From: Clostridiales bacterium | GTDB taxonomy: Bacteria > Bacillota > Clostridia > Oscillospirales > Oscillospiraceae | NCBI GenBank assembly: GCA_021202775.1 | Contig: JAJQCJ010000131.1 | Coordinates: 1-49,175 of the forward strand | Direction: 5' to 3' | Length of the DNA: 49,175 nucleotides | Shown here: positions 28,877 to 48,972 of the stretch, piece after piece | Layout: every line of letters starts with the position of its first letter | How positions within the stretch are numbered: the stretch's first letter is position 1 | The notes under the pieces: model-generated | Seen by the model: only the letters and a program-made list of their open reading frames with translations | What the model was told of the DNA's origin: nothing | Databases searched by the model: none | Translations under genes and position numbers: made by a program

Positions 28877-28919
28877 GCAGCACGGACGCCCAAACCGTCG
28901 GCGTCCGTGCTGCTTTTTT
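28877..28919 (+). terminator. Terminator of the DUF3048 gene
   Basis: 14-bp perfect stem (28877-28890 with 28900-28913), 9-nt loop, six Ts. Confidence 0.9.
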
Positions 28920-28940
28920 GGGATTCTTTTCATTTTTCCA

Positions 28941-28969
28941 TTGTGCTGAGGCACAATTTCCGCTATAAT
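28941..28969 (+). promoter_or_regulatory. Promoter of the LRR-VWA-GNAT-MoxR module with overlapping palindrome
   Basis: TTGTGC (28941-28946), 17-bp spacer, perfect TATAAT (28964-28969). The -35 is the left half of TTGTGC TGAG GCACAA (28941-28956), a candidate operator. Confidence 0.6.
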
Positions 28970-29002
28970 AGAAAGCTGTGGAACAGAAGGGAACGATGGC
29001 GG

Positions 29003-30154: not shown

Positions 30155-30176
30155 ACCCCGGTAAGAAGGAGCTGCC

Positions 30177-31538: not shown

Positions 31539-31560
31539 CCGGGAAAGGGGTACGATTCCT

Positions 31561-32091
31561 ATGAAAAAACCGCTGGCCGTCCCGCTGGAAACACGGCGGC
31601 TGATTTTGCGGCGCTTTCACTCGGCAGACAGCGGGGATTGCTTCTCCTTCCTGTCGGACGCTGAGACCTGCCGGAACAATGGGTTCCTGCCCTTTGACGC
31701 CATGGATGAGGAGTATGGCCTCCTGATGGAGCGCTTCGCCGCCCAGACGGGGCGGTGCATGGTGGTGTGCCGGGAGACGAATCGGGTTATCGGCACCATC
31801 GTCCTCTTTCCGGCGGAGGAAGGCGCTGCCGTGGAGCTTGGATTCACCATCAGCCCTGCCCATCGCAGGCAGGGGTATTGTACGGAGGCGCTGGACAGGC
31901 TGATGGACTGCTGCCGGCAGGTCGGTGTCCGCCGTTTTATCGCGGATACCCTTCCCGACAACGCTGCCGCCCAGGCCGTACTGACCGGGCTGGGATTCCG
32001 GCAGGCAGGCACCGTCTCCATTGACTGCGACCTGGCACAGGGACAGCGGATGCTGCGCTGTCTGCGGGACGAAGCCGCCCACATCCGTTGA
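31561..32091 (+). CDS. GNAT-family N-acetyltransferase, RimJ/RimL-like
   Basis: 176 residues from the ATG at 31561, 22 bp after the VWA stop. The start LAVPLETRRLILRRF, middle VIGTIVLFPA, acetyl-CoA loop SPAHRRQGYCTEAL and late NAAAQAVLTGLGFRQAG are the ordered GNAT motifs. It would move an acetyl group from acetyl-CoA to an amine such as a protein N-terminus. The insertion between the VWA and MoxR genes is notable: the acetyltransferase may modify a component of the module or may simply be a passenger. Confidence 0.88.
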   Translation: MKKPLAVPLETRRLILRRFHSADSGDCFSFLSDAETCRNNGFLPFDAMDEEYGLLMERFAAQTGRCMVVCRETNRVIGTIVLFPAEEGAAVELGFTISPAHRRQGYCTEALDRLMDCCRQVGVRRFIADTLPDNAAAQAVLTGLGFRQAGTVSIDCDLAQGQRMLRCLRDEAAHIR

Positions 32092-32134
32092 ACAGAGAAC
32101 CTTGATTTTGAATAGACAGAGGGTAACACAGGTT

Positions 32135-33779: not shown

Positions 33780-34952
33780 TCAACGATTCCCTGTTTCGGG
33801 AACGGCAGAAAGTTCCTCTTCCGTCTCGGGAATGGGAGCGGATTCCGTTTCCGCAGCATTTTGCGTGGCGTTCATGCTGGCCTGCTGTGCCTGCTGCACC
33901 TCCGCCACCAAAAGGTTGGCCTCTTCTGCGTTGCCAAAAAGATCGGCAACCAGTTCTTTCACGGGCTGCGCTTCTACAGAAGCCCTCTGGTCGTCCTCTT
34001 TCATCGTACTATAGTCCGGAGACAGCGCCCCGGTCTGCGGGGACAGCTTCTCGCCCTGCTCCTGATGTACCTCTACCGGCGTTCCGCCGCTAAAGGAGGC
34101 GTTTTTCAGCAGCGCAGGCAACTCATCTGCCAGATGGATCAGCCGTTCCTCCAGAGCTGCCCTTCGGCGGACAGATTGGGCGGCGGGCGTTTCCTCCCGC
34201 TGATCCTCGACCAACTGTTCCAGCTGCTCCCGGCTGACCAGCGCATCGTTCTTAGACGTGATTAGCATCTGCAGATCCCGCGCCAGATCCATCAGCTGAG
34301 CATAGGTGAAGCCCTCAGTATACGCCGCACAGTCGTCCAACGAGACAAATCCGGCTAAACCCTCTCTGCTTTCCAGAAAACAGTTGCGGTGTTCCAGGTC
34401 GGGCAGCGTCATCCGACACCGTTGAAGCTGTTCCCGAAGCAGACTGGGGATGCCCCGCCCGCTGTCAATGAGGATGAGAAACAGGCGGGAATCGGCTCCT
34501 TCCTTCCGCACAAGCCAGTAATCCCACAGGAGTTTCCCCAGATAGGACAGCAGCTCTTTCCGGCCGGAGCGGCCCTCCAGCTGCTCGATCACCAGGCAGA
34601 GGCACTTCTCGTGTTCATTAAAGTCGTCTAACAGTGCGTTCAGTTTCTCTCTGGCCTCAGAGACGTTTCCCTCCTCCAGCAGATCGTCGCCGGAGAGCCA
34701 TATGCTGCCAAAGTTCTGCTCCTGAAGGAACCGAACCATATGGGCCGCAGCCGTATGTCGGCCGCAGCCCTCCGGGCCGGTCAGCAGCAGGCCGGAGGGG
34801 CGGGTGGTTGCTTCTTCTGTCCACCAGAGGTTTTTCAATAACGCACCCCAGCCGCAGGAGTCGTCCGTCCAATGGGTTTCAAGGCATTTCTCGAAGGCGC
34901 TCGACCTGCGTTCCATTTCCTCCGCCCATTGCTTCGCCGCTTCCGCTGTCAT
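33780..34952 (-). CDS. Degenerate AAA ATPase-like protein (last gene of the reverse operon)
   Basis: 390 residues. A P-loop-like segment LLLTGPEGCGRHTAA (about 55-69) has Arg-His where Walker A needs Lys-Ser/Thr, and the Walker B position reads CLCLVIEQLEG, without the DE pair. It therefore keeps the AAA shape but probably cannot hydrolyse ATP. After a helical lid-like part (about 200-300) comes an acidic, Gln-rich tail with PVKELVADLFGNAEE, a motif also found at the end of the 353-residue protein at 39996-41057. It lies 17 bp after a second AAA gene. I do not recognise the family; a regulatory ring subunit is the simplest idea. Confidence 0.75.
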   Translation of the reverse strand: MTAEAAKQWAEEMERRSSAFEKCLETHWTDDSCGWGALLKNLWWTEEATTRPSGLLLTGPEGCGRHTAAAHMVRFLQEQNFGSIWLSGDDLLEEGNVSEAREKLNALLDDFNEHEKCLCLVIEQLEGRSGRKELLSYLGKLLWDYWLVRKEGADSRLFLILIDSGRGIPSLLREQLQRCRMTLPDLEHRNCFLESREGLAGFVSLDDCAAYTEGFTYAQLMDLARDLQMLITSKNDALVSREQLEQLVEDQREETPAAQSVRRRAALEERLIHLADELPALLKNASFSGGTPVEVHQEQGEKLSPQTGALSPDYSTMKEDDQRASVEAQPVKELVADLFGNAEEANLLVAEVQQAQQASMNATQNAAETESAPIPETEEELSAVPETGNR

Positions 34953-34969
34953 GATTCCGCCCCCTACTC

Positions 34970-36247
34970 TTACTGCACCCCATCGCCGGCGCGGATGCTC
35001 CGTTCAAATTCCTCCAGCTCCAGTCGAATTCCCGTCTTATCAGAGGGAGGAAGTTCTTTTTGCGTGTCATGGAACAGCATCCGGGACAGGCGGACCCTCC
35101 CGGTTTTCAGTGCCTCTCCGGCGGCGATAGCAGTCTGTTCCAGATCTTCCGTCCCATCAGCGGCGCAGAAGCGGCAGGTTTCGATCGCCTGCCGCTTCAG
35201 CTGGGCGGCAATGGCAGAACAAAGTCTGTTCAGATCCTGATAGTTGTAGTTGTCCGTGGCCTCCGCCATTTCTCTGAAGGTAAAGCCATCCTCCAGCGTC
35301 AGCGAGGCACACTTGCGGGCAAAATATGCCTCTTTGGCATCCTCTCCGGGAAACGAAAACCGAATCCTTGCGTTTATATGGTCCATCCACACCGCATCGA
35401 TCTGGCCGGGATGGTGAGTGGCCCCCATAAAAACCACCGTTTTGCCGGAGGCGCTGAGCCTGCTGTAGGCCTGCAAAAACGTGCTGGTCAACCGCATCTG
35501 ACAGACTTCTGCGTTTTTACCCCTTCCAAAACAAACAGCTTCAATGTCGTCAATAAAAAAGATGCACGGGGCGTTGTCAATGACCTCCTGGAAGGCAATA
35601 TTGACCGTCTTTTCCGCCACGCCCGCCGGATCGGCATGGATGTCACCGCCGTTGAGCCGGATAAATTTGAAGCCATGTTTCTCCATCAGTTCCCTGGCAA
35701 ATGCCTCGATGACGAAGGTTTTTCCGGAGCCGGGAGGGCCGTATAGCAGATAGCTTTGCAGCGGAGCGATCTGAAGAGCGGCGTCTGTCCGGGTCCAGCC
35801 AATGTATGCCGCCACATTGATCAGGCTCTCTTTCAGTTCATCCATCCCCACCACATCGTCAAACCCATGATTGGGCATGGGTTTGTACCATTTTTCAATG
35901 GTCTCGGCGGGAACATCCTTGACCGCATTTTTTGTGGTGAATCCGGAAGGGGCCTGCTTCTTTGGGGACAGCGGCTCCGGGTCTGCCGGCGGAACCGGAG
36001 CAATGATGCCGGCGATCTCTTCGGCACGTTCCTCGCACTCCAGCCGATGCATTTCCCATTCCGTATAAACAGCCTGCCGGGAGCGGTTCTGGTCCCGGAT
36101 TTCCTGGCAAACCCTGGCTGCCTCTACATAGAGCAGACATTCCTCTTTAGAGGGAGCCCCTCCCCTTTCCCGGTTGATACGTTCAGCTTTCCGAATCAGG
36201 CTCACGTACAGGGTGTTCCTTTCGAACTGCCATTCCATACAAGTCAT
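34970..36247 (-). CDS. AAA+ ATPase, second tandem copy (Walker B and sensor 1 altered)
   Basis: 425 residues. A short helical N-terminal hairpin (about 10-80), a Pro-rich linker, then a classic AAA module: FDDVVGMDELKESL, Walker A GPPGSGKT (170-177), Walker B CIFFIDDIEAV and sensor 1 GATHHP (275-280). Compared with the paralogue just upstream, the Walker B Glu is Asp (DEID to DDIE) and the sensor Asn is His, so ATP binding is likely but hydrolysis may be slow or lost. The C-terminal lid has REMAEATDNYNYQDLNRLCS. Start alternatives lie 3 codons apart (ATG at 36247 or 36238). It probably forms mixed rings with its paralogue. Confidence 0.85.
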   Translation of the reverse strand: MTCMEWQFERNTLYVSLIRKAERINRERGGAPSKEECLLYVEAARVCQEIRDQNRSRQAVYTEWEMHRLECEERAEEIAGIIAPVPPADPEPLSPKKQAPSGFTTKNAVKDVPAETIEKWYKPMPNHGFDDVVGMDELKESLINVAAYIGWTRTDAALQIAPLQSYLLYGPPGSGKTFVIEAFARELMEKHGFKFIRLNGGDIHADPAGVAEKTVNIAFQEVIDNAPCIFFIDDIEAVCFGRGKNAEVCQMRLTSTFLQAYSRLSASGKTVVFMGATHHPGQIDAVWMDHINARIRFSFPGEDAKEAYFARKCASLTLEDGFTFREMAEATDNYNYQDLNRLCSAIAAQLKRQAIETCRFCAADGTEDLEQTAIAAGEALKTGRVRLSRMLFHDTQKELPPSDKTGIRLELEEFERSIRAGDGVQ

Positions 36248-36271
36248 ATAAGAGAGCTCACCGCCTTAACC

Positions 36272-37666
36272 TTACTGCGCTCCAACATTGGCGCAGATGT
36301 TGCGCTCATACTCCTCCAGCTCCAGACGAATCTCCGTCTTGTCAGAGGGGGTAAGCTTTTTTTGCGTGTCATAGAACAGTGACCGGGTCAGGCGGATTTT
36401 TCCGGTCGTCAGCGACTCGCTGGCGGCAATATCAGCCTGGTCTTGTTGGCCCTGGTCTGCACAAGAGGCGCCACCGGTGGCCTGTTTCTTCAGCTGCCCG
36501 GCAATCGTGGACATCAGATGCTCCATATCCCGATAGCTGTAATTGTCGGTGGCCTCCGCCATTTCTCTGAAGGTAAAGCCGTCCTCCAGCGTCAGCGAGG
36601 CACACTTGCGGGCAAAATATGCCTCTTTGGCATCCTCTTCGGGAAGCGGAATCCGAATCCTTGCGTTCATACGGTCCATCCACGGCCCATCGATCCGGCC
36701 GGGATGATTGGTGGCCCCCATAAAAACCACCCGCTTTCCAGAGGCGATGAGCCGACCGTAGGCTTCCAAAAATGCCGCGGTCAACCGATTCTCATGGCCC
36801 TCCGCCTTTTGGTTCCGTCCAACACAAACACCGTCAATCTCGTCAATAAAGAAGATACACGGGGCGTTGTCGATGGCCTCCTGGAAGGCGATGTTGACCG
36901 TCTTTTCCGCCACGCCCACCAGGCTGGCGTGGATGTCGCCGCCGTTGAGCTGGATAAATTTAAAACCGTGCTTCTCCATCAGTTCCCTGACAAACGCCTC
37001 GATGACGAAGGTTTTTCCGGTGCCGGGAGGGCCATAGAGCAGATAGCTTTGCAGTGGTGGAATCTGAAGAACGGCATCTGTCCGGGTCCAGCCAATGCTG
37101 GCTGCCTCATCGATCAGGCGCTCTTTCAGCTCCGCCATTCCCACTACATCGTCAAACCCGTGATTGGGCATGGGTTTGTACCACTTCTCGATGGTCTCGG
37201 CGGGAACATCCTTGACTGCGTTTTTGGTGGTGAACCCGGAGGCGGTTTGTGCCGTCTTTGCGGATTTAGTGGGGGCGGCGGTACTCTGCGGCTTTGGCTG
37301 CGTTTTCACCGGCCCCTTCGGTTCCGCCGGTTCCGGTTCCGCCGGCCCCGGCATCGGCTCCTCCGGCTCCGCCGACGGAGCAGGAGGAACCGGCGCAAGT
37401 ATGTCGACAATCTCTTCGGCACGCTCCTCGCACTCCAGCCGGCGCATTTCCCATTTCGTATAAACGGCGCGCTGGGAGAGGTTTTGGTCCCGGATTTCCT
37501 GGCAAACCTTGGCAGCCTCCAAATAGGCATTACACTCCTCTTTAGAGGGAGCCCCTCCCCTTTCCCGGTTGATGCGTTCAGCCTTCCGGATCAGGTTGAC
37601 GTACTGGCTGTTCTTTTCGGACATTTGATCCAGGTAAGAGGTTCCGCTGATGTCGTATTTGCGCAT
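36272..37666 (-). CDS. AAA+ ATPase, first tandem copy (catalytically complete)
   Basis: 464 residues: N-terminal helical hairpin with NLIRKAERINRERGGAPSKE nearly the same as its downstream copy, a long Pro/Glu/Ala linker (about 90-145), and a classic AAA module with Walker A GPPGTGKT (212-219), Walker B CIFFIDEIDGV, sensor 1 GATNHP (317-322) and arginine-rich RMNARIRIPLP. All residues for hydrolysis are present. The layout, a small helical N-domain plus one AAA domain, recalls Vps4/katanin-like remodelling ATPases; relationship is by organisation only. It and the 425-residue copy arose by tandem duplication. Confidence 0.88.
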   Translation of the reverse strand: MRKYDISGTSYLDQMSEKNSQYVNLIRKAERINRERGGAPSKEECNAYLEAAKVCQEIRDQNLSQRAVYTKWEMRRLECEERAEEIVDILAPVPPAPSAEPEEPMPGPAEPEPAEPKGPVKTQPKPQSTAAPTKSAKTAQTASGFTTKNAVKDVPAETIEKWYKPMPNHGFDDVVGMAELKERLIDEAASIGWTRTDAVLQIPPLQSYLLYGPPGTGKTFVIEAFVRELMEKHGFKFIQLNGGDIHASLVGVAEKTVNIAFQEAIDNAPCIFFIDEIDGVCVGRNQKAEGHENRLTAAFLEAYGRLIASGKRVVFMGATNHPGRIDGPWMDRMNARIRIPLPEEDAKEAYFARKCASLTLEDGFTFREMAEATDNYSYRDMEHLMSTIAGQLKKQATGGASCADQGQQDQADIAASESLTTGKIRLTRSLFYDTQKKLTPSDKTEIRLELEEYERNICANVGAQ

Positions 37667-37678
37667 AGTATCCCCTCC

Positions 37679-38434
37679 TTAAACGTCATCCTCAGGTGGA
37701 TAAATGTCCTTCATGGCATCCATGTTATCTCCCATGTCATCGTCATTCAAAACGGAAGCATCGTCCGGTATACTGTTAGCCCGGGCGGAGAGGTCCTCCC
37801 ATTTGGACTTGCCTTTGCCTTTGGAACTGGTCTTTCCCGTATACTGGCTGCGTCGATCCGCAGTCACTTTTTCCGGAGAATGGCTGTTTTTCAGGCACGC
37901 TTCAATATCGCCTGTCTGCTTCAATTCATCAAAAAATCCGTCCAGCACCTCCTCCTTCTCTTTCAGGGTGCTCTCAGCGCTGAGATAGCCGTACTCGTCC
38001 CGTTCCTTTCCCGGGTTCCACCCGGTCAGCCGGAAGGGATTACTTCCTCTGTTGGTAATTTGCCGGGTGGCGGCCTCCAGCAGCTCATAGGCATGGGCGA
38101 TGCTGTCATATTCCGGCACTGTTCCCAGGGCAAAAATCGCGTCCTTTACCAGCATATAGCCCAGTGCCGCATCCCACAGGATCTGTTCGTTGACTTGGGT
38201 GTCCATACCGTCCTGCGTTCCCGCAGTGATGTTCCGGCTCTGCTGCTGAATCGTGCGGTTGAAATCCTTCTTACAGACTTCCAGTTTTCCTGCGCAGTTC
38301 AGCAGGGAATATTGCAGCTCTGCCGCCTCTTTCCGGTTCTTGTTTGCTTTCCGAAATTTGAATTTTCGCTTCATATCGTTCAGCTGATTCTGGACATCCT
38401 CCAGTCTGCCGGTCATGCTGCTCCAAATTGACAT
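37679..38434 (-). CDS. Unrecognised 251-residue helical protein of the reverse operon
   Basis: Starts at the ATG at 38434 with AAAGGAG 6 nt upstream; a longer frame upstream lacks a ribosome site. The N-terminal third is basic and coiled-coil-like (RLEDVQNQLNDMKRKFKFRK). A middle helical part (LWDAALGYMLVKDAIFALGT) follows, and the C-terminus is Lys/Ser-rich and then very acidic (NDDDMGDNMDAMKDIYPPED). No membrane segment or known catalytic motif is seen. It sits between the coiled-coil pair and the AAA pair, 12 bp before the latter. Function unknown; an adaptor between scaffold and ATPase is a guess. Confidence 0.75.
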   Translation of the reverse strand: MSIWSSMTGRLEDVQNQLNDMKRKFKFRKANKNRKEAAELQYSLLNCAGKLEVCKKDFNRTIQQQSRNITAGTQDGMDTQVNEQILWDAALGYMLVKDAIFALGTVPEYDSIAHAYELLEAATRQITNRGSNPFRLTGWNPGKERDEYGYLSAESTLKEKEEVLDGFFDELKQTGDIEACLKNSHSPEKVTADRRSQYTGKTSSKGKGKSKWEDLSARANSIPDDASVLNDDDMGDNMDAMKDIYPPEDDV

Positions 38435-38481
38435 ATGATGTCTCCTTTCTGCACGGATTGCTGTGCCGCTGCGCAGCAATC

Positions 38482-39762
38482 TTAATTGAAGTTCTGCTCG
38501 ACTTCCTCTTCGGCCGCTTCCTCCTGATGGAAGGCGTTCTGCTCCTGTTCCTCTGCCTGCCTGCGGAGCTCATCCAGTTCCTCCTGGGATTTGAGGCCCA
38601 GCTTCTTCAACCGCTCACTGTTCCGGCGCTGCGCCGATTTCACATATTCCTCATCTTCATGTTTGATCTGCTCCAACGCTTTTTTCGCCTGCTCCGCAGC
38701 CACTTCTCTGGCCCGAACCGCACCGGGGGCCTTCTCCAGCATCTTGAGCCGCCCTTCGATCTCGTCAGCGGATTTCAAAATCTCATCGATCTCCGCATCG
38801 CTCTCAGTCAGCTCCTGGAACAGTTCGTCCATCATCTCGTTGTATTTGTTCATCAGGTCAGGATCTTCCACCACGGGCAAAGTGGTCAACTTGGCCTGGA
38901 TCGCTCTCAATTCGTTTTCCTTGGCGCTCAGCTTCATCTGATAAGATACAAGCCGCTGACCGCTCAGATCCATCTTGATCTGGCTCAGCCGCAGATCAAC
39001 GAGCATTTTGTGTACCTCCCGCTGGGTCTGCGTCCAATGGGCTCTGTCCTCCTGGGTGTCGTGATTGAGGATATGCTGAAACGCTTCTCCTTTTTCCAGG
39101 TCATCCTTCAGCATGGACTTGATCTCTGCCAGTTTTTTCTTGTTCCGCTCCTCCGCCTTTTGCTGGTCAGCCTGCAGATTCTCCGCATCCTTTTCCAAAT
39201 GATCCACCGATTGGGCAAAATTTACCAGGGTGATCCATTCCTCCAGATATTTAGCGTTCAGCTCCACGAACTGCTTGGCCAGTTCCGGTTGATTTTGAGG
39301 AATGCGGGTGCGGATGTCCATCAGTCCACGCGCCAGTGCGCCTTTGGCGGCGTAAGCCATATGTTTGTCGCCCTGTTCCACTGCCTGCCGGAAGAGCGTG
39401 GCCAAGGTGATCAGTTTCTGATCGATCTCGCGGATGTCCATCTGAATAATCTGCGGGTCTTTGAGCAGCACCTGCTGCAGGTATCGCGCCGCATATTCCA
39501 GGTCGCCGCAGGGCTGCTTGGAGTTGGACTTGTACTCCAAATCCTTTTGAGGCAGACGGCTGTGGGCAAAATCAATGCTGCTGAGTTCTTCGATAATGAG
39601 GGACTCATTATGCGCCGTATCGTCTGTGACCTTTCTGGCCACCGACTCCTCCATCTCCCATTGCTGCTCCTTGCGGCGCTCCCTCCATGCGGAAAAGGGA
39701 TTTACACTCTTTTTTGATGAGCCTGCCCTCCAGGCGTCTGAACCGGGTCTTCCGTTTGCCAT
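38482..39762 (-). CDS. Unrecognised coiled-coil protein, second paralogue (426 residues)
   Basis: Starts at the ATG at 39762 after a GAAAGGAGA site inside a repeated leader. The N-terminal region is basic. Residues about 55-300 are clearly homologous to the 353-residue protein upstream: shared blocks include ELSSIDFAHS, QPCGDLEY-ARYLQQ, LFRQAV-QGD-MAYAA and the W-T-Q stretch near residue 240. From about 180 the chain is mostly charged coiled coil, ending QEELDELRRQAEEQEQN with an acidic tail. No nucleotide-binding motif is present. Structural scaffold is the likely role; family not recognised. Confidence 0.78.
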   Translation of the reverse strand: MANGRPGSDAWRAGSSKKSVNPFSAWRERRKEQQWEMEESVARKVTDDTAHNESLIIEELSSIDFAHSRLPQKDLEYKSNSKQPCGDLEYAARYLQQVLLKDPQIIQMDIREIDQKLITLATLFRQAVEQGDKHMAYAAKGALARGLMDIRTRIPQNQPELAKQFVELNAKYLEEWITLVNFAQSVDHLEKDAENLQADQQKAEERNKKKLAEIKSMLKDDLEKGEAFQHILNHDTQEDRAHWTQTQREVHKMLVDLRLSQIKMDLSGQRLVSYQMKLSAKENELRAIQAKLTTLPVVEDPDLMNKYNEMMDELFQELTESDAEIDEILKSADEIEGRLKMLEKAPGAVRAREVAAEQAKKALEQIKHEDEEYVKSAQRRNSERLKKLGLKSQEELDELRRQAEEQEQNAFHQEEAAEEEVEQNFN

Positions 39763-39910
39763 ATGGTTCTCCTTTCTCTTCGGGGGTCTCCCGTCGGCGG
39801 CAGAGGTGCTGCCGCCCCTTGATGTGTATCCGGGAAGGGGTGCGGCTGATCTGATTGGCCTGCCTCTTTCCTGTGATGATGTGTGCAGTGCGTGTGCGCT
39901 GACGGGTATC
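39760..39910 (-). repeat. Duplicated leader, copy 1
   Basis: 151 bp that matches 41055-41205 at 140 positions by eye with no gap, running from the start codon upstream. It contains an 8-bp stem-loop (GGCGGCAG ... CTGCCGCC) and the ribosome site. The remaining gap to 39995 shows no gene. Confidence 0.85.
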
Positions 39911-39995
39911 GCTGCCCGTTAGCGTTCCGTCATCCGTTTCTATTGCTCCGGCGCAGACGGCGCCTGCTGCGGCTGCTTTATCAGTTCTAACAAAT

Positions 39996-41057
39996 TTAAG
40001 AATCCTCACCAAAAAGATCTGCAGCCAGTTCGCTGACACTCAGCGCTTCCAGAGAATCTCTGGTAACGGAGGCGGGCGCTTCCTGTGTTAGCACGCCATC
40101 CTGTACGCCTTCCGCTTCGGTATCTTCCTCCTGCTGGGAGCCACTCTGCTCCTGTTCCTCTGCCTGTCTGCGGAGCATATCCAGTTCCTGCTCCTTTCGG
40201 AGCTGGTCCAGCATACTTTGTGCCTCCCCACTGCATTTGTTCAACAGATTGGAATCCGCCACCACTGGCAGAGCAGCCAAGTTGGCCCAAATCGCTATCA
40301 CCGCCTCTTCCTCATCGCTCTGCCTCCCAAGACAGTCCCTAAGTCGCCGACCGGTCAAATCTATCTGACGTCGGCTCAGATGATGATCAACGAGCAACCT
40401 GTATACATCCATTTGCGCCTTCGTCCAATGGCCCATATCCTCAGGACTGTCGTGTTCCAGGAAGTGCTGAAAGGCTTCAACCTTTTCAACATCGTTATAA
40501 ATTATAAACTTTAAATTTTCCAGCGATTTATGATACTGCCTTGTCTCCTCATCATAGATTGCGCTCAGATTTTTTACGTCCCTTTTCAGATGATCTACCT
40601 CACAGGCAGAGTTTACCAGTGCGATCCAATTCTCCAGATGTCTGGAATACAGCTCCACAAACCGCTGGGCCAACTCCGGATTCTTCTGGGGAATGCGGAC
40701 ACGGATGTCCCTCACCCCCTGCGTCAGAGCGCTCCTGGCGGCGTAAGCCATATATCTGTCGCCCTGATCCACTGCCTGCCGGAAGAGCCTGGCCAGGGTA
40801 AGCAGCCTCTCATCAAGGCTGTGGGTACTTATTTGAGTGATCTGCGGGGCTCCGCGCAACAGCTGCTGCAGGTATCGCGCCGTATACTCCAGGTCGCCGC
40901 AGGGCTGATTGGGATCGGTCTTGCGCTCCAAATCCTCCGCGGGCAGGGAGCTGTGGGCAAAATCAATGCTGCTGAGCTCTTTGATAATGCGGGCCACCCG
41001 CTGCTGTGCCTTGCCGCGCTCCATCCGTGCGGAAAATAGGGTTACTATTTTCCGCAT
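39996..41057 (-). CDS. Unrecognised helical protein, first paralogue (353 residues)
   Basis: Begins at the ATG at 41057 behind copy 2 of the duplicated leader. Homologous to the 426-residue protein downstream over most of its length (IIKELSSIDFAHSSLPAEDL, QPCGDLEYTARYLQQLL, RLFRQAVDQGDRYMAYAAR), but with a shorter coiled-coil half. Its C-terminus, LSVSELAADLFGEDS, repeats a motif at the end of the degenerate AAA protein (ELVADLFGNAEE) and is missing from the 426-residue paralogue. No enzymatic motif seen. Tandem duplication with later divergence is the simplest history. Confidence 0.78.
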   Translation of the reverse strand: MRKIVTLFSARMERGKAQQRVARIIKELSSIDFAHSSLPAEDLERKTDPNQPCGDLEYTARYLQQLLRGAPQITQISTHSLDERLLTLARLFRQAVDQGDRYMAYAARSALTQGVRDIRVRIPQKNPELAQRFVELYSRHLENWIALVNSACEVDHLKRDVKNLSAIYDEETRQYHKSLENLKFIIYNDVEKVEAFQHFLEHDSPEDMGHWTKAQMDVYRLLVDHHLSRRQIDLTGRRLRDCLGRQSDEEEAVIAIWANLAALPVVADSNLLNKCSGEAQSMLDQLRKEQELDMLRRQAEEQEQSGSQQEEDTEAEGVQDGVLTQEAPASVTRDSLEALSVSELAADLFGEDS

Positions 41058-41205
41058 ATGGTTCTCCTTTCTCTTCGGGGTTCTCCCGTCGGCGGCAGAG
41101 GTGCCGCCGCCCCTTGATGTGTGTCCGGGAAAGAACGCGGATGATCTGATTGGCCTGCCTCTTTCCTGTGATGATGTGTGCGGCGCGTGCGCGCTGACGG
41201 GTATC
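41055..41205 (-). repeat. Duplicated leader, copy 2
   Basis: Partner of 39760-39910, 140 of 151 positions the same by eye, no gap. Contains the GGCGGCA/TGCCGCC stem-loop and the AGAAAGGAGA ribosome site. Confidence 0.85.
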
Positions 41206-41258
41206 TCCTTCAGGCTCCTCGCTGCAGGTAATTATCCATGCCCGGCCTGATAACGCCC

Positions 41259-42835
41259 TCAGTCCGGTGGCAGGTAATCATAGAGACTGTCATCAAATTC
41301 AAACGTTTCCGGATCTTTATCTGTCTCCGGTTCCTGCTGGAACTCCTCCGGTCCGTTCGTCTGCTGACCAGCCTCAGCTTCGCTCAAAATGTCATCCAGC
41401 GCCTTCTTCAGATCACGAACGTCATCGGAATCGTTGTTTGACGACAGGCCGATGATCGTGCTGCTCATTGCGTCCTCAAGCTGGTTCAGCATACCTTTCC
41501 GGAGCTCCAGCAGCTGTGTTTGCTGCTGTATTTTTTTTCGGTCAGCTCGTTCTTTCCCTTTTGCAGCGTTTGACGATCAACTGCCAGACGTTTCTGACGC
41601 TGGCTGTAGTCTGCCGAGAGCTGAATGATTTGTTTGAGCGTTTTGATGGTCTGTAAGATTTTTTCTTCCTGCCCCTTGTCCACATACACCCACTGAACGC
41701 AAAACAGAATCGCATACAGGGCGCGCCGATAAGTATTGCCGTCCTCGCTGCTCTTTGCTGTGTCCAATTCGGTAAACAAATCCTCGAATTCCGCGACGAT
41801 ACTGTCGTTTTCAAACCGGTTCTTTGGGGTTCGAACAGCTCCCCGGATTTGATCCAGAATCACCCTGCATTGCTCCGCATCTGCCATCGTTTCCGGTACC
41901 GTCAGCTGCAGGCACCGCTCGGCATAGCTGCCTTTCTCCCGCAGGATGCCTGGCGGCGCATCTTCCTGCCACTGCTGCAGGAAACCGCTCTGCCGCGCCC
42001 GCCGGCTCTGAAGAAGCAGCCGCTCCAGAACTTCGCCCTTTTGAAGGCGCTCGTACAGATCCCGGTACTTGAAATTCCAGGTCAGCCTGCCTCCGTCAAA
42101 GAGCGGCTGCGCCTTCCGCAGCGCAGCGCAATTCAAATAGCGGGTCAGGTAGTCCGCTGCGCCATCCAGCTGATCCCGCGGGAGGATGCGGCCCTCATCG
42201 AAGGAGAGGCGGCACAGCAGATCCTGAATCCGATCCCTGCGGAAGGTGTTGAGATAGAGCATGCTGTCCCTTTTTTTCTCCTGGATGGAGGGGTACAGGG
42301 GCCGCACGCCGCCATTCCTGGCACCGGTGACGGCGGTTTCGTTCAGTTGCTTGAACACGCGGCTATGCAGGAGCAGCTTTTGAGATCCCTCTGCCGTCAC
42401 CGGGGCGGTCAGGACAAAAATCCCTGTTCTCCGTTTCAGGTTGGCAAGAGAGGTCAACGTACTCTCCCATTCCTCTGCCTCCAGAAGCCGACAAAAATCG
42501 TCCAGAGGGCAGACAAAGGCAACCTTGTTGTATGTGTCTGCTTCCAACTGGCTGCGCAGCCAGTCCCCCTGTTGTTTCTCTTCTGTTTCAGTGCCGAAAA
42601 TCCTGCTCCACCAGGATGACTTGACGGCGAGGGTGTCGCTTTTGATATTGTCATAGGTTTGGATGGAAAAGGTATGCGCATCGGAGCGGCTGAGGAAATA
42701 GACCGTATGGTAGCGCTCCTCGTGAAGCTTCATACACAGGTATTGATTCAGCTTCAGCCGGAGCAAACCACCGCAGTAATAGTCATCATCATCGTTGGCA
42801 AACACGAAGTGAATCAGTTCACTGGATGAAAACAA
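41259..42835 (-). CDS. Unrecognised protein joined across a -1 frameshift at A8 (about 525 residues; 449 without it)
   Basis: The zero frame runs from the ATG at 42835 to a stop at 41486 (449 residues). Just before its end it reads GAA AAA AAA TAC; slipping back one base continues as EKKIQQQTQLLELRKGMLNQ, a regular coiled coil, to a stop at 41259. The second part read alone is a 77-residue acidic frame (start 41492, ending DDSLYDYLPPD). Content: an N-terminal domain starting FSSSELIHFVFANDDDDYYC, a middle GIFVLTAPVTAEGSQKLLLH and a helical C-terminus. Family unknown. The A8 run could be an error, a mutation, or a programmed site, because a canonical A_AAA_AAA heptamer is followed by a 7-bp stem-loop. 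Confidence 0.8.
41508..41538 (-). promoter_or_regulatory. Candidate programmed -1 ribosomal frameshift site
   Basis: Reverse strand: slippery A_AAA_AAA in the zero frame within A8 (41531-41538), 2-nt gap, then stem CAGCAGC / GCTGCTG (41522-41528 with 41508-41514) around a 7-nt loop, followed by the palindrome GGAGCTCC. The short gap is unusual; dnaX-type sites have a longer one. Confidence 0.5.
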
Positions 42836-42861
42836 TGGTGTTCACTCCTTTCCGGCGTTGC

Positions 42862-43371
42862 TCAGTCCTTCCCCAGCAGCGCTATCCCATCAGAGGCTAC
42901 AGGCCCTTCTGTGCTGTTGCGCAGCAACAGCACGAGCTTACACTCCAAATCAGCCATTACGACCTTCATGCCCAGCTCCTGCAATTCCCTGCCCATGAGA
43001 TTGGGCAGATGCACCTGCACCTCCCGGTGGCGCTCAGCGTTGTCAATATAGACCCTGACCTGCAGCTCCGGCACATCCGGGATACGGGCAAATTTCTGAG
43101 GCAGCCAAACCTCCCCGTTCATCAGCTCCGCTCCGGTTCCCACGGGGATGCGCTCCTCCCGATCCAGAACCAGTTTGCCATCCCTGTCCTTCCAGTAACA
43201 GGCCGTCACACCTACCTGGAACCGGTTCAGGAACTCCTTCCGATGCGCCTTGATCATCGGCTGGAGCGTTTTCAGCCCCGCCTCCGGGTCGCCGGGGAAA
43301 TTGACCACAGGAAATCCGCACCTGGGACATTCATTGCCTTCAAAAATTTCACCGCATACCAGACATCTCAT
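42862..43371 (-). CDS. Zinc-ribbon protein of the reverse operon
   Basis: 169 residues from the ATG at 43371, which overlaps the coiled-coil gene stop by 4 bp; this coupling decides the start. The N-terminus is a four-Cys zinc ribbon (CLVCGEIFEGNECPRCGFP, Cys residues 3, 6, 14 and 17). The rest (about 30-165) looks like a beta-rich domain with GVTACYWKDRDGKLVLD, VRVYIDNAERHREVQVHLP and a C-terminal VMADLECKLVLLLRN, a little like a chaperone substrate-binding or Hsp70-associated module. It lies two genes after the Hsp70-like gene, so a co-factor of that protein is a fair inference. Confidence 0.8.
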   Translation of the reverse strand: MRCLVCGEIFEGNECPRCGFPVVNFPGDPEAGLKTLQPMIKAHRKEFLNRFQVGVTACYWKDRDGKLVLDREERIPVGTGAELMNGEVWLPQKFARIPDVPELQVRVYIDNAERHREVQVHLPNLMGRELQELGMKVVMADLECKLVLLLRNSTEGPVASDGIALLGKD

Positions 43372-45545
43372 TTCATAGTTCTCCAATTCAAGCGATTTTT
43401 GCATTTTTCCGCACAAATCAGCAGTTCCTGCTGAATTTGTTCCATAGACGTGCGCAAGGCATCCAAATCTGCTTCCAGGCGGTTCAAATCAGATTTTTCC
43501 GCTTCGCTCTGGCCCAGCGCATTCCCCAGTGTACGGATGGCTGCGGCCAGCGCCTTACGGGTATCCTCCAGCGTAAGCAGCCGCTGACTAGCATCCGCCA
43601 CCCGCTGACGCAGCTCAGGCGCGGTCATAGGCGTCAGCGCGGTTATCTCCGCATCGATTTCCTGCGTTTTTTTGTTTAGTTCTTCGAGCTGCCTTTTTTT
43701 ATCATTTCGCTCCTGCTCGGCGCTTTGCAGTTCAGCCTGCCCGGTTTCGAGCAGCGCTTCTGCCTCACGAGTCTCCTGCCGGATTTTTTCCAGTTTAGCG
43801 ATTTCATCATTTAGCTGCTGGTGATAGATGTTCAGCTTTTCGGCGTCCGTCTTGTCCTGCAATTCTGACAGGCGGCGCCTCAGCGATTTCAGCTCTGCAG
43901 TGTTTGTTTCATATCGGGCCGTCAATTCCTGATAGGCTGCGTTCTTTTCGTTCACATCTGCTTCCAGCTCCGCCAGCTCATGCTTGCGCTTTTCATTCTC
44001 TGCCTCAATCTCTGCCTTCTTCCGGGTCAGCGTCTCAAGGGCCTGTTCCTGTTCCTGCTTTCGCTTCTCTTCCGCCTGCAAATCGGCGTTCATATCCGGG
44101 ATGTCCTGATCCTGCAGGTTGTTCACCCTGGTCTGCAGGGCGCCCAACTCATCCGTCAACGCTGTCAGGGTGGTCTCCAGCTGACGGACCTGCTCCTTCA
44201 GAGCGTCCCGCTTCTGCGCCCTGCCCGTTCGCTCCTCATCCTTAATGTGCAATTTCACGGTTTCTGCTTCAATTTCATCATTGATGAGGGCGATTTCCAC
44301 CACCGCGTTGCTGCGCTTCGTCCTTAGTTCCGTCAGAATCTGCTCTTTCGCCGTTTTCTGTTGCAGCACCTGGTCATATTCGTCAGTGGCTTCTTGAAGC
44401 TGCGCCTCCACCGGAGCAAGCTCTTTTACGCGGTAGTCCGCTGTCTGCGCCTGCTGCGCGGCAATGTCATTTTTCTTCCGCTCACAGGTGATGATGAGCG
44501 TCTCGTATTCCTGTTGAAGCGTTTCGTACTGCATTTTGAATTGTTCGATGTCGGCCTCGATTTTGCGCTTGTCGGATTGCAGGGTTGCCGCATGATCGTC
44601 CTCTGCCTGCTTTTCCTGCTCCTTTTCCAGGAGCTGGTTTTGCAGCGCCTCCAGATGTGCGCGCAGGTCGGCGATCTCTGCATTTACGGTGGCAATCACT
44701 TCGTTTTGGGCGGAGATTTGGCCATCCAGATCCGCTTTTTTCGCGTTCAGCCTGTCCAATTTTGTTTGTGCGTCTTGTACAGACTGCTGCCTGCTGTCCC
44801 GCTCCGCCTGCGCCTGGTCGATTTCTTCCCGGAGCCGGGGCTCCCGTTCCTTTAACTGGCTGATTTCGGCGTTCAGTTTGTCAAGGCTTCCTTGCAGGGC
44901 TGTCACCTTCCCGGCCCGTTCCGCCTTCTCCTGCTCCAGCTTCTGGATGTCCGATGCCAACCCTGCGACTTTTGCGCGGAGCGGTTGATTCTTGCTTTCC
45001 TGTTCTATGCACGCTCTGGTCAGATCGGTTTGCGTTTGGGTCAGTTCAGCGGCCTCTGCCCTCAGCCTGTCCAGCGTCTCCTGGGATTTCTCCGGGTCAT
45101 ACTGGCGGAGGCGCTCGATCTCCTGCCCCACTTGCCTGCACTCGTCGTCCAGCGTCTGACAGGTTTTCCGGGCCTCCTGCCGGCGGGCCAGTTCTGCTTT
45201 GGCTGCGTTCAGTTTTTCCTGCGCTTTGGAGAGTTCCTCATATATACCAGAGAGTTCGTCCAACTTCTGCTCCGTGCCGGCCAGCTGCTGCATCATCTTG
45301 TCCAGCCGGGCGCGGTCACGCTCCAGTTCGTCTTTGTTTTTGTCATAGATTTGGTTGATAATCCGGCACAGCCACGCCAGCTTTGTGGGCAGTGTCTCGT
45401 CCCCCACCGGGCAGTTGTAAATAAATGTGCCAGATTCATCCCGGATATCACGAAACAGGGAGTCCACCATGCACAGCGCCATATAAATGGTGGGTTCACG
45501 TTCGGCATTGTTCCGGATGGCGGCGTTGAGCTGTTGAAATTTCAT
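43368..45545 (-). CDS. 725-residue SMC-like coiled-coil protein without ATPase motifs
   Basis: Start ATG at 45545, 1 bp after the Hsp70-like stop. A small globular head (about 1-72: NNAEREPTIYMALCMVDSLF and LAWLCRIINQIYDKNK) is followed by about 640 residues of nearly unbroken heptads rich in Glu, Gln, Leu, Lys and Arg. There is no Walker A, signature or Walker B, so it is not an SMC or Rad50 ATPase; it resembles only the arms. It would form a rod hundreds of angstroms long. Coupled to the zinc-ribbon gene by ATGA. Probable scaffold or tether of the operon's complex; database hits to SMC or myosin would be expected by composition alone. Confidence 0.85.
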   Translation of the reverse strand: MKFQQLNAAIRNNAEREPTIYMALCMVDSLFRDIRDESGTFIYNCPVGDETLPTKLAWLCRIINQIYDKNKDELERDRARLDKMMQQLAGTEQKLDELSGIYEELSKAQEKLNAAKAELARRQEARKTCQTLDDECRQVGQEIERLRQYDPEKSQETLDRLRAEAAELTQTQTDLTRACIEQESKNQPLRAKVAGLASDIQKLEQEKAERAGKVTALQGSLDKLNAEISQLKEREPRLREEIDQAQAERDSRQQSVQDAQTKLDRLNAKKADLDGQISAQNEVIATVNAEIADLRAHLEALQNQLLEKEQEKQAEDDHAATLQSDKRKIEADIEQFKMQYETLQQEYETLIITCERKKNDIAAQQAQTADYRVKELAPVEAQLQEATDEYDQVLQQKTAKEQILTELRTKRSNAVVEIALINDEIEAETVKLHIKDEERTGRAQKRDALKEQVRQLETTLTALTDELGALQTRVNNLQDQDIPDMNADLQAEEKRKQEQEQALETLTRKKAEIEAENEKRKHELAELEADVNEKNAAYQELTARYETNTAELKSLRRRLSELQDKTDAEKLNIYHQQLNDEIAKLEKIRQETREAEALLETGQAELQSAEQERNDKKRQLEELNKKTQEIDAEITALTPMTAPELRQRVADASQRLLTLEDTRKALAAAIRTLGNALGQSEAEKSDLNRLEADLDALRTSMEQIQQELLICAEKCKNRLNWRTMK

Positions 45546-45546
45546 A

Positions 45547-47271
45547 TCAGGGTGTCACCTCCGTTATCTCAAACATCTGCGCATAGCGCTCCAGCGGGAT
45601 CGCATACTTTGGCCCCGACATCCCCTGGTGGGGCACCGCATGAAATGTGACGATTTCGTTCTCGTCCATGGAAAAACCGCAATCACAGAGGTCGATATCC
45701 GGCAACCTGGCCAACCGCTCCCGCATCTCCTGCTTAAGGACCATCTTCACGCTGCCCTGATATCCGGGAAACTCAATGACAAATGTATCGATATTCTTCT
45801 TCAATCCACTGTAAGCCAGGCGATTGGCAGGTGTATCCGGCTTGCTCTCATCAAAGAGGAGGAAATAGATCCAGTCTGTCTTTACGGGTTGATGGCACCG
45901 AATGGCAAAGCGGCTCTTGCCGACACCGTCCTGCGAGAATGTGTAAAGGCCGATGGAGTACCTGGCAGTCTTTTGCAGGACGACCTTCCCTTCCGCCAGC
46001 AGCGCCGCCCCCAGAGAAATGGCCAGCTCCCGTCTGTCCGCCGCAATATTTTGGGTGCGTGGGTCGATGCGCTCGTTGGCGTCCAGTTTGTAAATCTCCG
46101 CGATTTGTTTCCGTACCAGGTAAAAGGAGCCGAAGCCCCCCACCAGGGCAATTTTAAAGTTGTCCTGCATACCGGAGTTGGGGTCACAGGGGTCGACCTG
46201 GATATAGTCCTTTACCGACCGGTTGATTTTCCCAATCTTCTCCGATACAACACCTTCGATGGTCTCCCGGTAAGCGGCAAACAACTGCTGGTAGGTCACA
46301 GGAACTTCTTCGCCGTTATATTCCAGACAAAGCAGCTCCTCTGGTTCAGCCTGGAGAATCTCCTCCAGATCACGATAAGAGCCGTAGAGTTCAAATTCGT
46401 CCTCGATGTCCTTGATACGCTCCGCAGTTTTGAGCTGGTTCTCCAGATCCCGCACCGCGGAAAGGAATGCCGGGCTGGTGTATGCGGGCGTCTCGTCTTT
46501 GCCCAGCGCGCCGCAATCCCGCATGGCGCGGATGGCCAGCGTCTGCATATAGGCAATGCCGGCCTTGCCGATGGTGTACTCGCCCCGTGCGTTGGGGTGG
46601 TTCTCACCCTCGCCGTCGCTGTCCACCTGCCGGATTTCCATCGTTCCGTTCTGGTTGGGGCAAACCCTGGTCAGCGTGATATCCAGTGTGCCGCCGCCGT
46701 AGTCGATGAGCAGCAGATGACCGTCAAATCGTTTTCCTGTTGTCTTTTCGTAGTTGTAAGCAAAAAAGGCGCTGGCCGCATCCGGTTCGTTGACCACCTG
46801 AACAGTTCCCACCGGAACATCCAGATCGTTTTGCAGGATGTCCCTCAGAATGACCCGGCCATCCAGCGTCCGCAGTTTCTTGCTCCAAATCTCCGGAACG
46901 CAGATACAGACCTTTTCCAGCCCCCTGCCGTCGTCATACCGGTTCAAAATGCCCTGCAGCATATTATTCAGGAAGCATTTGGTAATGTACCGGGGGGTGT
47001 ACTGTTCGTCATATCCGTGGCTGCGCAAAACGGCCTGATTCTGCTCCGTCAGGAGCATTTTAAAGGCTTCATAGATTTTGACGGTTGATTTTCCCACCTG
47101 ATTTTTCGCCGCCTGGCCGCAGGTGATCTGCCCACGCCTGCTGATGCTGACTACAGAGGGGATGCTGGCCGGCTCCCCTTCCGTCAGCGTCAGCGGCTCC
47201 ACGCGGTCGTCCACTCTGTTATAGCCAGAACCCGTTGAATAGGTGCTTCCAAAATCGATCCCAAGCTTCAT
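45547..47271 (-). CDS. Hsp70/DnaK-like ATPase with divergent C-terminus
   Basis: 574 residues. The actin-like ATPase core is clear: phosphate-1 GIDFGSTYST (4-13), connect-1 VNEPDAASAFF (160-170), phosphate-2 LLIDYGGGTLDIT (187-199) and adenosine loop IALVGGFGSF (374-383). The C-terminal part (about 435-574) is short and beta-rich, without the usual helical lid, so it is not DnaK itself. No grpE or dnaJ is adjacent. It follows the SWIM-HerA gene by 27 bp and abuts the coiled-coil gene. It may act as an ATP-driven switch that binds its own operon's partners; this is inference. Confidence 0.9.
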   Translation of the reverse strand: MKLGIDFGSTYSTGSGYNRVDDRVEPLTLTEGEPASIPSVVSISRRGQITCGQAAKNQVGKSTVKIYEAFKMLLTEQNQAVLRSHGYDEQYTPRYITKCFLNNMLQGILNRYDDGRGLEKVCICVPEIWSKKLRTLDGRVILRDILQNDLDVPVGTVQVVNEPDAASAFFAYNYEKTTGKRFDGHLLLIDYGGGTLDITLTRVCPNQNGTMEIRQVDSDGEGENHPNARGEYTIGKAGIAYMQTLAIRAMRDCGALGKDETPAYTSPAFLSAVRDLENQLKTAERIKDIEDEFELYGSYRDLEEILQAEPEELLCLEYNGEEVPVTYQQLFAAYRETIEGVVSEKIGKINRSVKDYIQVDPCDPNSGMQDNFKIALVGGFGSFYLVRKQIAEIYKLDANERIDPRTQNIAADRRELAISLGAALLAEGKVVLQKTARYSIGLYTFSQDGVGKSRFAIRCHQPVKTDWIYFLLFDESKPDTPANRLAYSGLKKNIDTFVIEFPGYQGSVKMVLKQEMRERLARLPDIDLCDCGFSMDENEIVTFHAVPHQGMSGPKYAIPLERYAQMFEITEVTP

Positions 47272-47298
47272 TCCGGTCCCTCATCTTTCTTTATCTGC

Positions 47299-48972
47299 TC
47301 AGGAAATCCCCCACTCACGGCACAGCTGCCAGAACGCCAGATCCCGGATGGCAAAGGGCGCTTCTTCAGAGAATTTGACAATGCCCTCATGTTTGGACAG
47401 GCCCTTGATGGCCCCATAGGTGGCGGCGATTTCAGGACTCTTGGGCTGGAGCTTAAAGACATACTCCACGTCCCGCTGCCGCAGGTCGCTGACGTTGTGC
47501 ACCACCCAGGTGAGCACATATCTGGAATAGTCATCGTCGCCGCCCACAAAATGGGATAAGCTCTGGGTGGACAGAATCACGCCCACGCCGAACTCCCGGC
47601 CCTCCTTCATGATTTTCCGCAGGGACGGGAACCCCTGGCTCATGAAGTTGTCCGCCTCATCCACCAAAATCAGGCTGCGCAGCTGCCGATACCTGCCGTC
47701 GGTTTTGCTGGAACCATACGTCTGCATCTGGGCATAGAACTGATCCAGGGTGATAGCCACCACCAGGTTCTGGATATCCTCATCGTCCCCGGACAGATCC
47801 ACCACCACGACGCCGCCGCTCAGCACATTGGCCAGAGACTGGGCCTTTGCCGAGTCAGATTCAAAAATATGGAACCCCTGGAGCTTGTTCATGGCCGCCG
47901 TCAGAGAATCCGGCATCCGCCCCTCCGTCTCCCGCTCGAAGATTTGATAGACCTGTGCGAAGGTGGGGGGCTTTCTGCTCCAGGTGGCTTCGTTTTCCGG
48001 GTCGATCCCCTGCGCTTCGTAGGCTTTCATGATGCAGTCCAGCAGGGTCTGCTGCTGCTTATGGCCCAGGCCGTAGATTTTGGAAACGGTGTCTTTAAAC
48101 ACATTGGCCGTATGCAGCGGCAGCAGCGGCCTGAACTTCCGCGTCCGGTTGAGGGCCAGGGGATTATAGGGCAGCATATAAGGGGTCAGCACGCAAGCAG
48201 GAACGGCCTTGCAAAAGTCCGTCTTTGTCCCGTTATAGTCCCCCTTATAGTCGAAAATCAACAGGCCCAGCGGATGCCCGTCAAAGTTGTTCTTCTGCTG
48301 GCGGTACATCTGGGCGATGAGAGATTTGGTGAACTGAGTTTTGCCTGTCCCCATTGTGCCGATAATGCCCATATTGGTGTGAAACACCTGTTCCGTGTCG
48401 TTGGGCCGCCAGTAGACCGCCTCCCCGTTCTCCATCCGCTGACCGAACAAAACCTCCATGGAACGAGGGGGCTGCCCATCATCGTTCGCGTCCGCCCCGT
48501 CCGGGAGGGGCGCCTCTGAGGGCGTGTCGTCGTCCTCGAAAACGAAGGGTTCCTCCTCTGGCGGTTCTTCATCGTTCACATCCGCCCCATCTGTGAAGGA
48601 CGCCTCTGAGGGCGTGTCGTCGTCCTCGCAATCGAAGGAGTCCTCCTCCGGCGGCGCTTCCTCCGGTTCCTCTGCGGCGGGTGAGGCGGCAAGAGCCTCA
48701 TCGAAGTACAGGAGCAATGCGGCAATATGCTGGCAAAAGTGGTGCTTTCTCCCGCTGGGGCAGTCACAGTGGAAGTCGGAGATCGCGCCATCGGACACGG
48801 TGGCCGATGCGTGGCTGACAAAGTGGAAAAAATCAAGCACTTTTGCTGACACGCAGGTACTTCCGTCCACCAGACGCTCCAGCTTCTGGTGGGTAACGCC
48901 CTGCAGGAGCTGTTCTCCCTCTCTTACTGTTTCCTCGCTGCAATAGCGGCGCAGGTCGATCTTCCGGTTCAT
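47299..48972 (-). CDS. SWIM zinc finger fused to a HerA/FtsK-like ATPase
   Basis: 557 residues, first gene of the reverse operon. The N-terminal SWIM finger is CDCPSGRKHHFCQH (Cys69, Cys71, Cys80, His82), a DNA- or protein-binding module. A very acidic linker (about 95-170) contains two copies of DDDTPSEA with a 30-residue period. The ATPase has Walker A GTMGTGKTQ (205-213), GLLIFDYKGDYNG, VVVVDLSGDDEDI, Walker B SLILVDEADNF (433-443) and Gln470 in LSTQS, as in HerA/DUF87 hexameric motors that move DNA. Intact ATPase. HerA proteins are common in DNA-handling and phage-defence systems; no nuclease partner is visible here. Confidence 0.88.
   Translation of the reverse strand: MNRKIDLRRYCSEETVREGEQLLQGVTHQKLERLVDGSTCVSAKVLDFFHFVSHASATVSDGAISDFHCDCPSGRKHHFCQHIAALLLYFDEALAASPAAEEPEEAPPEEDSFDCEDDDTPSEASFTDGADVNDEEPPEEEPFVFEDDDTPSEAPLPDGADANDDGQPPRSMEVLFGQRMENGEAVYWRPNDTEQVFHTNMGIIGTMGTGKTQFTKSLIAQMYRQQKNNFDGHPLGLLIFDYKGDYNGTKTDFCKAVPACVLTPYMLPYNPLALNRTRKFRPLLPLHTANVFKDTVSKIYGLGHKQQQTLLDCIMKAYEAQGIDPENEATWSRKPPTFAQVYQIFERETEGRMPDSLTAAMNKLQGFHIFESDSAKAQSLANVLSGGVVVVDLSGDDEDIQNLVVAITLDQFYAQMQTYGSSKTDGRYRQLRSLILVDEADNFMSQGFPSLRKIMKEGREFGVGVILSTQSLSHFVGGDDDYSRYVLTWVVHNVSDLRQRDVEYVFKLQPKSPEIAATYGAIKGLSKHEGIVKFSEEAPFAIRDLAFWQLCREWGIS
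48511..48628 (-). repeat. 90-bp-period direct repeat in the SWIM-HerA linker
   Basis: A 28-bp stretch is identical at 48511-48538 and 48601-48628, and similarity continues over a 90-bp (30-residue) unit. It encodes the acidic linker and is a likely site of length change. Confidence 0.85.

Follow-up and report, generated by a model that had tools for sequence, protein, structure and literature searches.

A rare, conserved clostridial operon of HerA-, Hsp70- and AAA-type proteins and the N-terminally tagged proteins that co-occur with it

Introduction

Several described bacterial systems share individual parts with the subject of this report, an operon of 11 minus-strand genes (p1 to p11) that occupies positions 33780-48972 of a 49,175-nucleotide stretch of DNA from a Clostridiales bacterium (assembly GCA_021202775.1, contig JAJQCJ010000131.1; hereafter the window, which is contig 6 in a 2.5-Mb, 174-contig assembly). 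HerA/FtsK capture by DndH is described in the available passages of PMC10853773, and the words SWIM and Hsp70 are absent from its main text. EAD-linked systems, in the passages available from PMC7159879, comprise core NTPase/chaperone genes and scattered adaptors correlated with them, and CoCoNuT type III-A, as outlined in the accessible part of PMC11090510, has an Hsp70-like protein, coiled coils, a zinc ribbon, a CDC48-like AAA protein and HerA-like ATPases.

Here, we describe how the operon compares with these systems and with its own relatives. It shares with DndFGH a DndH-type HerA ATPase domain (in p1), but p1 is without about 1300 N-terminal DndH residues (nuclease and other domains) and has a SWIM zinc finger there instead; no DndF or DndG match was found among p1 to p11, and an Hsp70/AAA core is added. 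Like the EAD-linked systems, so far as those passages describe them, it consists of core genes that co-occur with a scattered cohort sharing a small adaptor, in this case across few, partly related genomes; unlike them it has no MoxR-vWA, GTPase, VMAP or STAND core, and its adaptor is a zinc ribbon plus a linear motif. It differs from CoCoNuT type III-A, as portrayed in that part of the source, in showing no match to McrB GTPase (NxD), McrC, CnuH helicase, HEPN or TerY-P in Pfam, NCBIfam and PADLOC scans. In PADLOC, p9 matches residues 57-293 of the 330 of IetA at 1.3e-20 and p10 matches IetA at 7.1e-18, both matching TRIP13 less well, and the NCBIfam scores of p9 for CDC48 and CdvC are numerically stronger (7.8e-31 and 1.1e-29). 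The partner of IetA, IetS, is a serine protease, whereas no peptidase family match was found among p1 to p10 in Pfam. A MoxR-vWA ternary system differs in layout: MoxR and DUF2201 vWA genes adjoin the operon but are convergent with it, not part of it, and MoxR was not found in one related locus (L010), with about 1.2 kb of sequence beyond p11.

PADLOC models match single parts only (p1 the HerA end of DndH, p9 and p10 IetA, p3 coiled coils), partner genes of the matched systems were not found among the operon proteins, and no description of this gene set was found in the literature searched (titles, abstracts and passages, with most subscription journals outside coverage). The operon is real, rare, conserved and unmatched by any named system among those compared.

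Results

One p2 scan of 84,980 species genomes, by design confined to close relatives, returned six loci (L006 to L011) at 54-81% identity, all in clostridial metagenome-assembled genomes (MAGs). By tblastn with the window proteins, gene order is the same in all six, one of which is a 3.5-kb fragment: p2-p3-p4-p5 is kept in every locus as far as its contig extends, p7 comes next in the four reaching that far (L006, L007, L009 and L010), p8 and p9 are present in L006, L007 (p9 truncated at the contig end) and L010, and p11 in L006 and L010. These last two hold a single p7 and a single AAA gene, against a pair of each in the window, and we therefore read the p6/p7 and p9/p10 pairs of the window as local duplications. 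The p2 proteins of L006 and L007 are 67-81% identical to that of the window, and those of L009 and L010 more distant (55-57%). HerA immediately precedes p2 in L006, L007 and L008, is absent beside p2 in L009 and L010, and was not found at E<=1e-10 in the genomes of L009, L010 and L011 (MAGs of unstated completeness); it is an optional add-on to the operon. Across nine operon genes compared with L006, dN/dS is 0.10-0.46 (the adjoining MoxR gene gives 0.10 over 238 codons), and these values, with the order kept in five other loci and a fragment, make the operon more than a chance arrangement. In the nearest relative, L006 (genome G1102), p5 and p8 are each interrupted by a stop and the frame of p7 is broken, so that it looks partly inactivated, unless these are MAG errors; in the window operon the frame of p5 is broken, whether by mutation, by slippage or through an assembly error. 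The locus is under constraint but damaged in some copies, a pattern typical of accessory systems.

Relatives beyond these loci are few. One of 294 further genomes from the order had a p2 relative at E<=1e-20; profile searches, in which at most three candidates were scored per listed genome, yielded one remote p2 relative among 390 other class genomes (E<=1e-40) and none among 397 others of the phylum sample (E<=1e-30), and p4 was found in 0 of the 390 at E<=1e-5, with a limited number of candidates scored. The two genomes in which p2 relatives turned up are G057 and G564, whose remote cousin loci are described below. No close p2 match was found in phages, in viral contigs or in plasmids (seven records, best about 25% identity, to Hsp70 genes of Rhodococcus/Gordonia), so that these searches leave carriage of the operon by plasmids or phages unsupported.

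The strongest new result is the link between the operon and a cohort of proteins that share a tag, namely a zinc ribbon followed by GFDxSxxYxxYPTL, set N-terminally ahead of unrelated modules (RHS repeats with a transmembrane (TM) segment, RCC1, DUF285, LRR_5, PASTA and Sel1; S1 stands before the tag). Full tags occur in six of the seven operon-bearing genomes (G000, G1102, G1103, G1105, G1106 and G1107; not G1104), with best matches per genome of 69.9-83.7 bits. The window's own genome, G000, carries its four tagged genes on contigs other than this one, and in L007, L009 and L010 tag genes adjoin the operon, with a D-x-S-x-x-Y-x-x-YPTL-type motif and zinc ribbon near the N-terminus. The ribbon is missing and the motif kept in three of four tandem genes of L007, and five frames of G1103 carry D-x-S-T-x-x-L-x-YPTLM with the ribbon absent. 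Rows of the tag profile came from G000, G1103, G1105 and G1106; G1102 (4 matches) and G1107 (5, one partial) match though neither contributed a row, and both look like close kin of G000. By hydropathy, a single TM segment, mostly after basic residues (Lys/Arg), is present in 10 of 29 distinct tagged frames (from loci of the six genomes, some cut at their ends).

Elsewhere the matches are weaker and partial. When 61 family genomes were searched with a single sequence and all candidates scored, the window's genome alone gave strong matches (E<1e-6); the best match in the 60 others, same-genus G260 included, was E 3.4e-4, and four of these held marginal matches (E 3e-4 to 0.007), some with internal stops. 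With the tag profile, 65 of 391 class genomes matched at E<=0.001; the 64 apart from G000 reach at most 28.7 bits, and their matches stop by profile position 31 save in G398 and G373. The best match in the 390 other class genomes, at 28.7 bits, falls in the ribbon half, and the YPTL motif was not seen in eight of these weak-match loci that were read, G398 and G373 included. Among the 390 other genomes of the class, with no more than 18 candidates scored in any one, the full tag was found in none, which is a count of what was found and not proof of absence; the search omits, for example, a ribbon-only match in G564 that another search shows. Fisher's test for the association of tag and operon yields 1e-12 when the class is the comparison and 7e-8 with the 60 family genomes, the genomes being taken as independent, an assumption that does not hold. 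The zinc ribbon of p4 may be akin to that of the tag (hhalign 93.8%), which would give the core a cognate adaptor as in the EAD-linked logic, but when scored with the tag profile it falls short of 17 generic zinc-ribbon frames; the loci of those frames had themselves been chosen by this profile. A peptidase-like pattern in one tagged protein (C19/L081) was seen by eye only, with nothing from Pfam.

Features of the operon and its surroundings are listed in Table 1. A preliminary description, made by a model from the sequence letters without database searches, had laid out co-directional genes with short gaps; reading frames, strand and order hold, with spacings from p1 to p11 of 27 bp, 1 bp, a 4-bp ATGA overlap, 26, 201, 233, 47, 12, 24 and 17 bp. 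The genes are closely packed (gaps of 1-47 bp) bar two wide gaps, before p6 and before p7. The parts it named are borne out, namely SWIM-HerA (SWIM below threshold), Hsp70-like protein, coiled coil, zinc ribbon and three AAA proteins (p11 by way of a PDB profile), and its two paralogous helical proteins and 251-residue protein are likewise as described. It had also called p5 a frameshift-joined protein: the frame is indeed broken at the A8 run, but a conserved programmed frameshift is rejected, as the run is missing there in L006 and p5 is an intact single frame of 528-558 amino acids (aa) in L007, L009 and L010. No TM segment was found in the operon proteins by hydropathy. The leaders ahead of p6 and of p7 are about 150 bp long, with similar ones before p7 in L006 and L007; no p7 leader of this type was seen in L009 or L010.

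Table 1. Coordinates of the operon genes, their subregions and leaders, and the neighbouring module (window positions)
Feature	Position	Strand	Remarks
p1 SWIM-HerA, 557 aa	47299..48972	(-)	SWIM zinc finger, acidic linker, DndH-type HerA ATPase
p1 SWIM zinc finger	about 48706-48771		
p1 acidic linker	about 48475-48657	(-)	tandem duplication around EDDDTPSEA...DGADxND, by eye
p1 HerA ATPase	about 47323-48489		
p2 Hsp70-like ATPase, 574 aa	45547..47271	(-)	ATP-site motifs conserved
p3 long coiled coil, 725 aa	43368..45545	(-)	adjoins p2 in all six relatives
p4, 169 aa from conserved ATG	42862..43371	(-)	zinc ribbon, helix, putative substrate-binding-beta (SBD-beta)-like domain; 4-bp overlap with p3
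p5, frame-broken	41259..42835	(-)	break near 41531-41538 in A8 run; N-terminal domain, then helices
leader p5/p6	41058..41258	(-)	GC-rich hairpin, repeated ahead of p7
p6 helical protein	39996..41057	(-)	p7 paralogue, 53% identity
leader p6/p7	39763..39995	(-)	same GC-rich hairpin element as p5/p6 leader
p7 helical protein	38482..39762	(-)	single copy in L006 and L010
p8, 251 aa from ATG at 38434	37679..38434	(-)	no known family
p9 classical AAA (Cdc48/CdvC-like)	36272..37666	(-)	Walker A GPPGTGKT, Walker B FFIDEID
p10 AAA, p9 paralogue	34970..36247	(-)	Walker B FFIDDIE (Glu to Asp); Pfam AAA 5.3e-24, above cut-off
p11 degenerate AAA	33780..34952	(-)	Walker A GPEGCGRHT, no clear Walker B
convergent module	28907-33631	(+)	LRR_5 protein, DUF2201 vWA protein, MoxR-type AAA

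The HerA/DUF87 domain of p1 passes its Pfam cut-off (1.7e-10), and SWIM falls below its own (E 0.0064) with the CxC...CxH pattern present. Residues 162-550 match PADLOC DndH residues 1301-1685 (of 1686) at 1.6e-178, and so only the last 385 residues of that model. By tblastn, the HerA part is 47% identical to dptH-annotated genes on plasmids and 49% to a gene of a Dnd-type element (46-49% for the best DptH-type matches overall); it also scores above cut-off with TrwB_AAD_bind, a Pfam domain of type IV coupling proteins (1.3e-8). The best 'phage' match to HerA lies in MT836308.1 (L023; labelled Bacteriophage sp., human faeces), which reads as a relaxase-bearing mobile element holding DndFGH- and DndC-like genes, named by reading of the frames.

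p2 matches Pfam HSP70 above cut-off (1.8e-8) and PDB DnaK at 2.1e-16 over the nucleotide-binding part only; among the best 60 of 112 PDB rows, all of its best-matching stretches lie within positions 2-226. Its Hsp70 nucleotide-binding domain has the phosphate and adenosine motifs, and these are conserved in an alignment of relatives. Stretches of p3 within 62-715 match NCBIfam SMC/Rad50-type proteins, and we take its NCBIfam and PADLOC matches (SMC, Rad50, LmuB and JetC) as coiled-coil matches. In the model of p4, the domain after the zinc ribbon and helix resembles an Hsp70 SBD-beta domain and may share its fold; profile comparison gave no link between p4 and p2. No convincing family match was found for p5, p6, p7 or p8 in Pfam, NCBIfam and PADLOC scans. 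The N-terminal domain of p5 is possibly a degenerate AAA without Walker A, and its comparison with the N-terminus of the AAA protein of the remote cousins described below (hhalign E 0.066, probability 0.8%) is no proof of relation.

p9 scores above cut-off with Pfam AAA (1.1e-29), matches PDB Cdc48 at 1.6e-60 and is 75% identical to its paralogue p10. p11 falls below the Pfam AAA cut-off (E 0.032) and is assigned to AAA by PDB profile (E 1.5e-5), with Msp1- and Vps4-type rows close behind. ATP use by the operon proteins is likely, given the conserved motifs of the Hsp70-like p2 and of p9. An MIT domain at the p9 N-terminus was considered on appearance by eye only, with no Pfam or PDB profile match. 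A V-x-E-L-x-A-D-L-F motif is common to p6 (residues 341-349) and p11 (residues 331-339), near the protein ends, with a close form in p11 of L006, and may be a docking peptide.

Two remote cousins of the operon lie in genomes G057 (L012/L022) and G564 (L017/L021), where the Hsp70-like protein is 27% identical to p2. They resemble it in having an Hsp70-like protein with coiled-coil, AAA and zinc-ribbon proteins, and differ in a radical SAM gene and in a single double-AAA protein of 1.1 kaa (thousand amino acids) with a C-terminal trypsin-like domain. The radical SAM call is our own reading of the frames together with weak PADLOC viperin matches, and PADLOC protease models match the trypsin-like end as well. 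A HerA-type gene is near the cousin operon in G564; no p4 match was found in the class sample holding G564, and the full YPTL tag was not found in G057 or G564.

Next to the operon, the MoxR part of the convergent module is 96% identical in L006 and has a 72% relative in same-genus G260, where p2 was not found; the G260 contig ends 190 bp past MoxR and so is uninformative as an empty-site comparison. In L008 the operon adjoins housekeeping genes, which we take by reading to be recN and spoIVB.

Discussion

The preliminary description had proposed a large ATP-driven complex matching no system that it could name and had left anti-phage defence, DNA handling and protein remodelling side by side. 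Profile searches of the proteins and comparison of gene order match the multi-ATPase set to no named system, and the genes co-occur in other genomes. Its overall interpretation shifts in that HerA is optional and the tagged cohort, in our view, favours protein remodelling over DNA handling.

Our tentative preference is for a soluble Hsp70/AAA remodelling machine dedicated to tagged, polymorphic clients, with HerA as an add-on. That the machine acts on the tagged proteins is suggested by the co-occurrence of the tag with the operon and by the Hsp70-type parts. Its proteins would form a complex in which the Hsp70-like p2 and the zinc-ribbon and SBD-beta-like p4 would read the tag and capture client proteins; a hetero-oligomeric AAA assembly, with p9 active and p10, p11 and perhaps p5 impaired or degenerate, would pull or unfold them, and the scaffold would be made up of p3, p6/p7 and p8, which are coiled-coil and helical proteins. 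The clients would be the genome's own polymorphic proteins, addressed by an N-terminal tag of either zinc ribbon plus GFDxSxxYxxYPTL or YPTL alone, and might be folded, extracted, assembled, exported or destroyed. HerA, where present, would be an extra motor that could add DNA or membrane coupling.

Three other explanations bear on the same evidence, the first two of them (export and defence) being live rivals. Tag-directed export or surface display, in which the tag would be a secretion or assembly address, HerA/FtsK-type and AAA proteins would power export and the Hsp70 would keep clients export-competent, is unlikely, if the least so of the three. It would suit the several tagged proteins with PASTA, DUF285/BspA-type leucine-rich-repeat (LRR) and RHS modules, which are usual outside the cell. 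The tag occupies the N-terminus, and the Lys/Arg found just before most of the single TM segments would place it inside and the remainder outside; the match of p1 HerA to a type IV coupling-protein domain points the same way. However, the operon proteins themselves are without a TM segment, the L009 and L010 genomes yielded no HerA, and the RCC1 and S1 modules suit the cytosol. Anti-phage or anti-plasmid defence, in which the translocase would be a DndH-type HerA and the tagged proteins would act as sensors or effectors after the EAD-linked conflict logic, is doubtful and ranks behind export. Speaking for it are the DndH type of the HerA, the IetA matches of p9 and p10, the patchy distribution, lesions in L006 and the window that fit a dispensable accessory locus, and the remote cousins, each of which brings in a trypsin-like and a radical SAM protein and one of which is beside a HerA-type gene. 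Against it, scans of the operon proteins found no nuclease or toxin domain, nor did Pfam in nine flanking open reading frames, HerA is optional and the tagged modules are mainly structural repeats.

A general protein quality-control cluster, whose co-occurrence with the tag would come from shared ancestry only, is improbable. Its chaperone-type domains and the partly close kinship of the operon-bearing genomes (L006 and L007 in particular) speak for it, but tags are also present in the more distant L009 and L010 genomes and are absent from the 60 family genomes, same-genus G260 included.

Beyond the preferred remodelling machine, it is conceivable, and we put this forward with less assurance, that the locus represents an address-tag system not described before, in which an Hsp70/AAA machine recognises a portable N-terminal tag, be it zinc ribbon plus YPTL or YPTL by itself, so as to assemble, extract or activate a polymorphic cohort of repeat proteins that are not otherwise related and of which some span the membrane. 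The tag makes the question directly testable. If this were true, the DndH branch of HerA ATPases would gain a role outside restriction, and bacteria would possess a dedicated chaperone/AAA machine that works through a protein address code of its own, with a logic like that of adaptor-tagged effectors but built on Hsp70 instead of the known NTPase switches.

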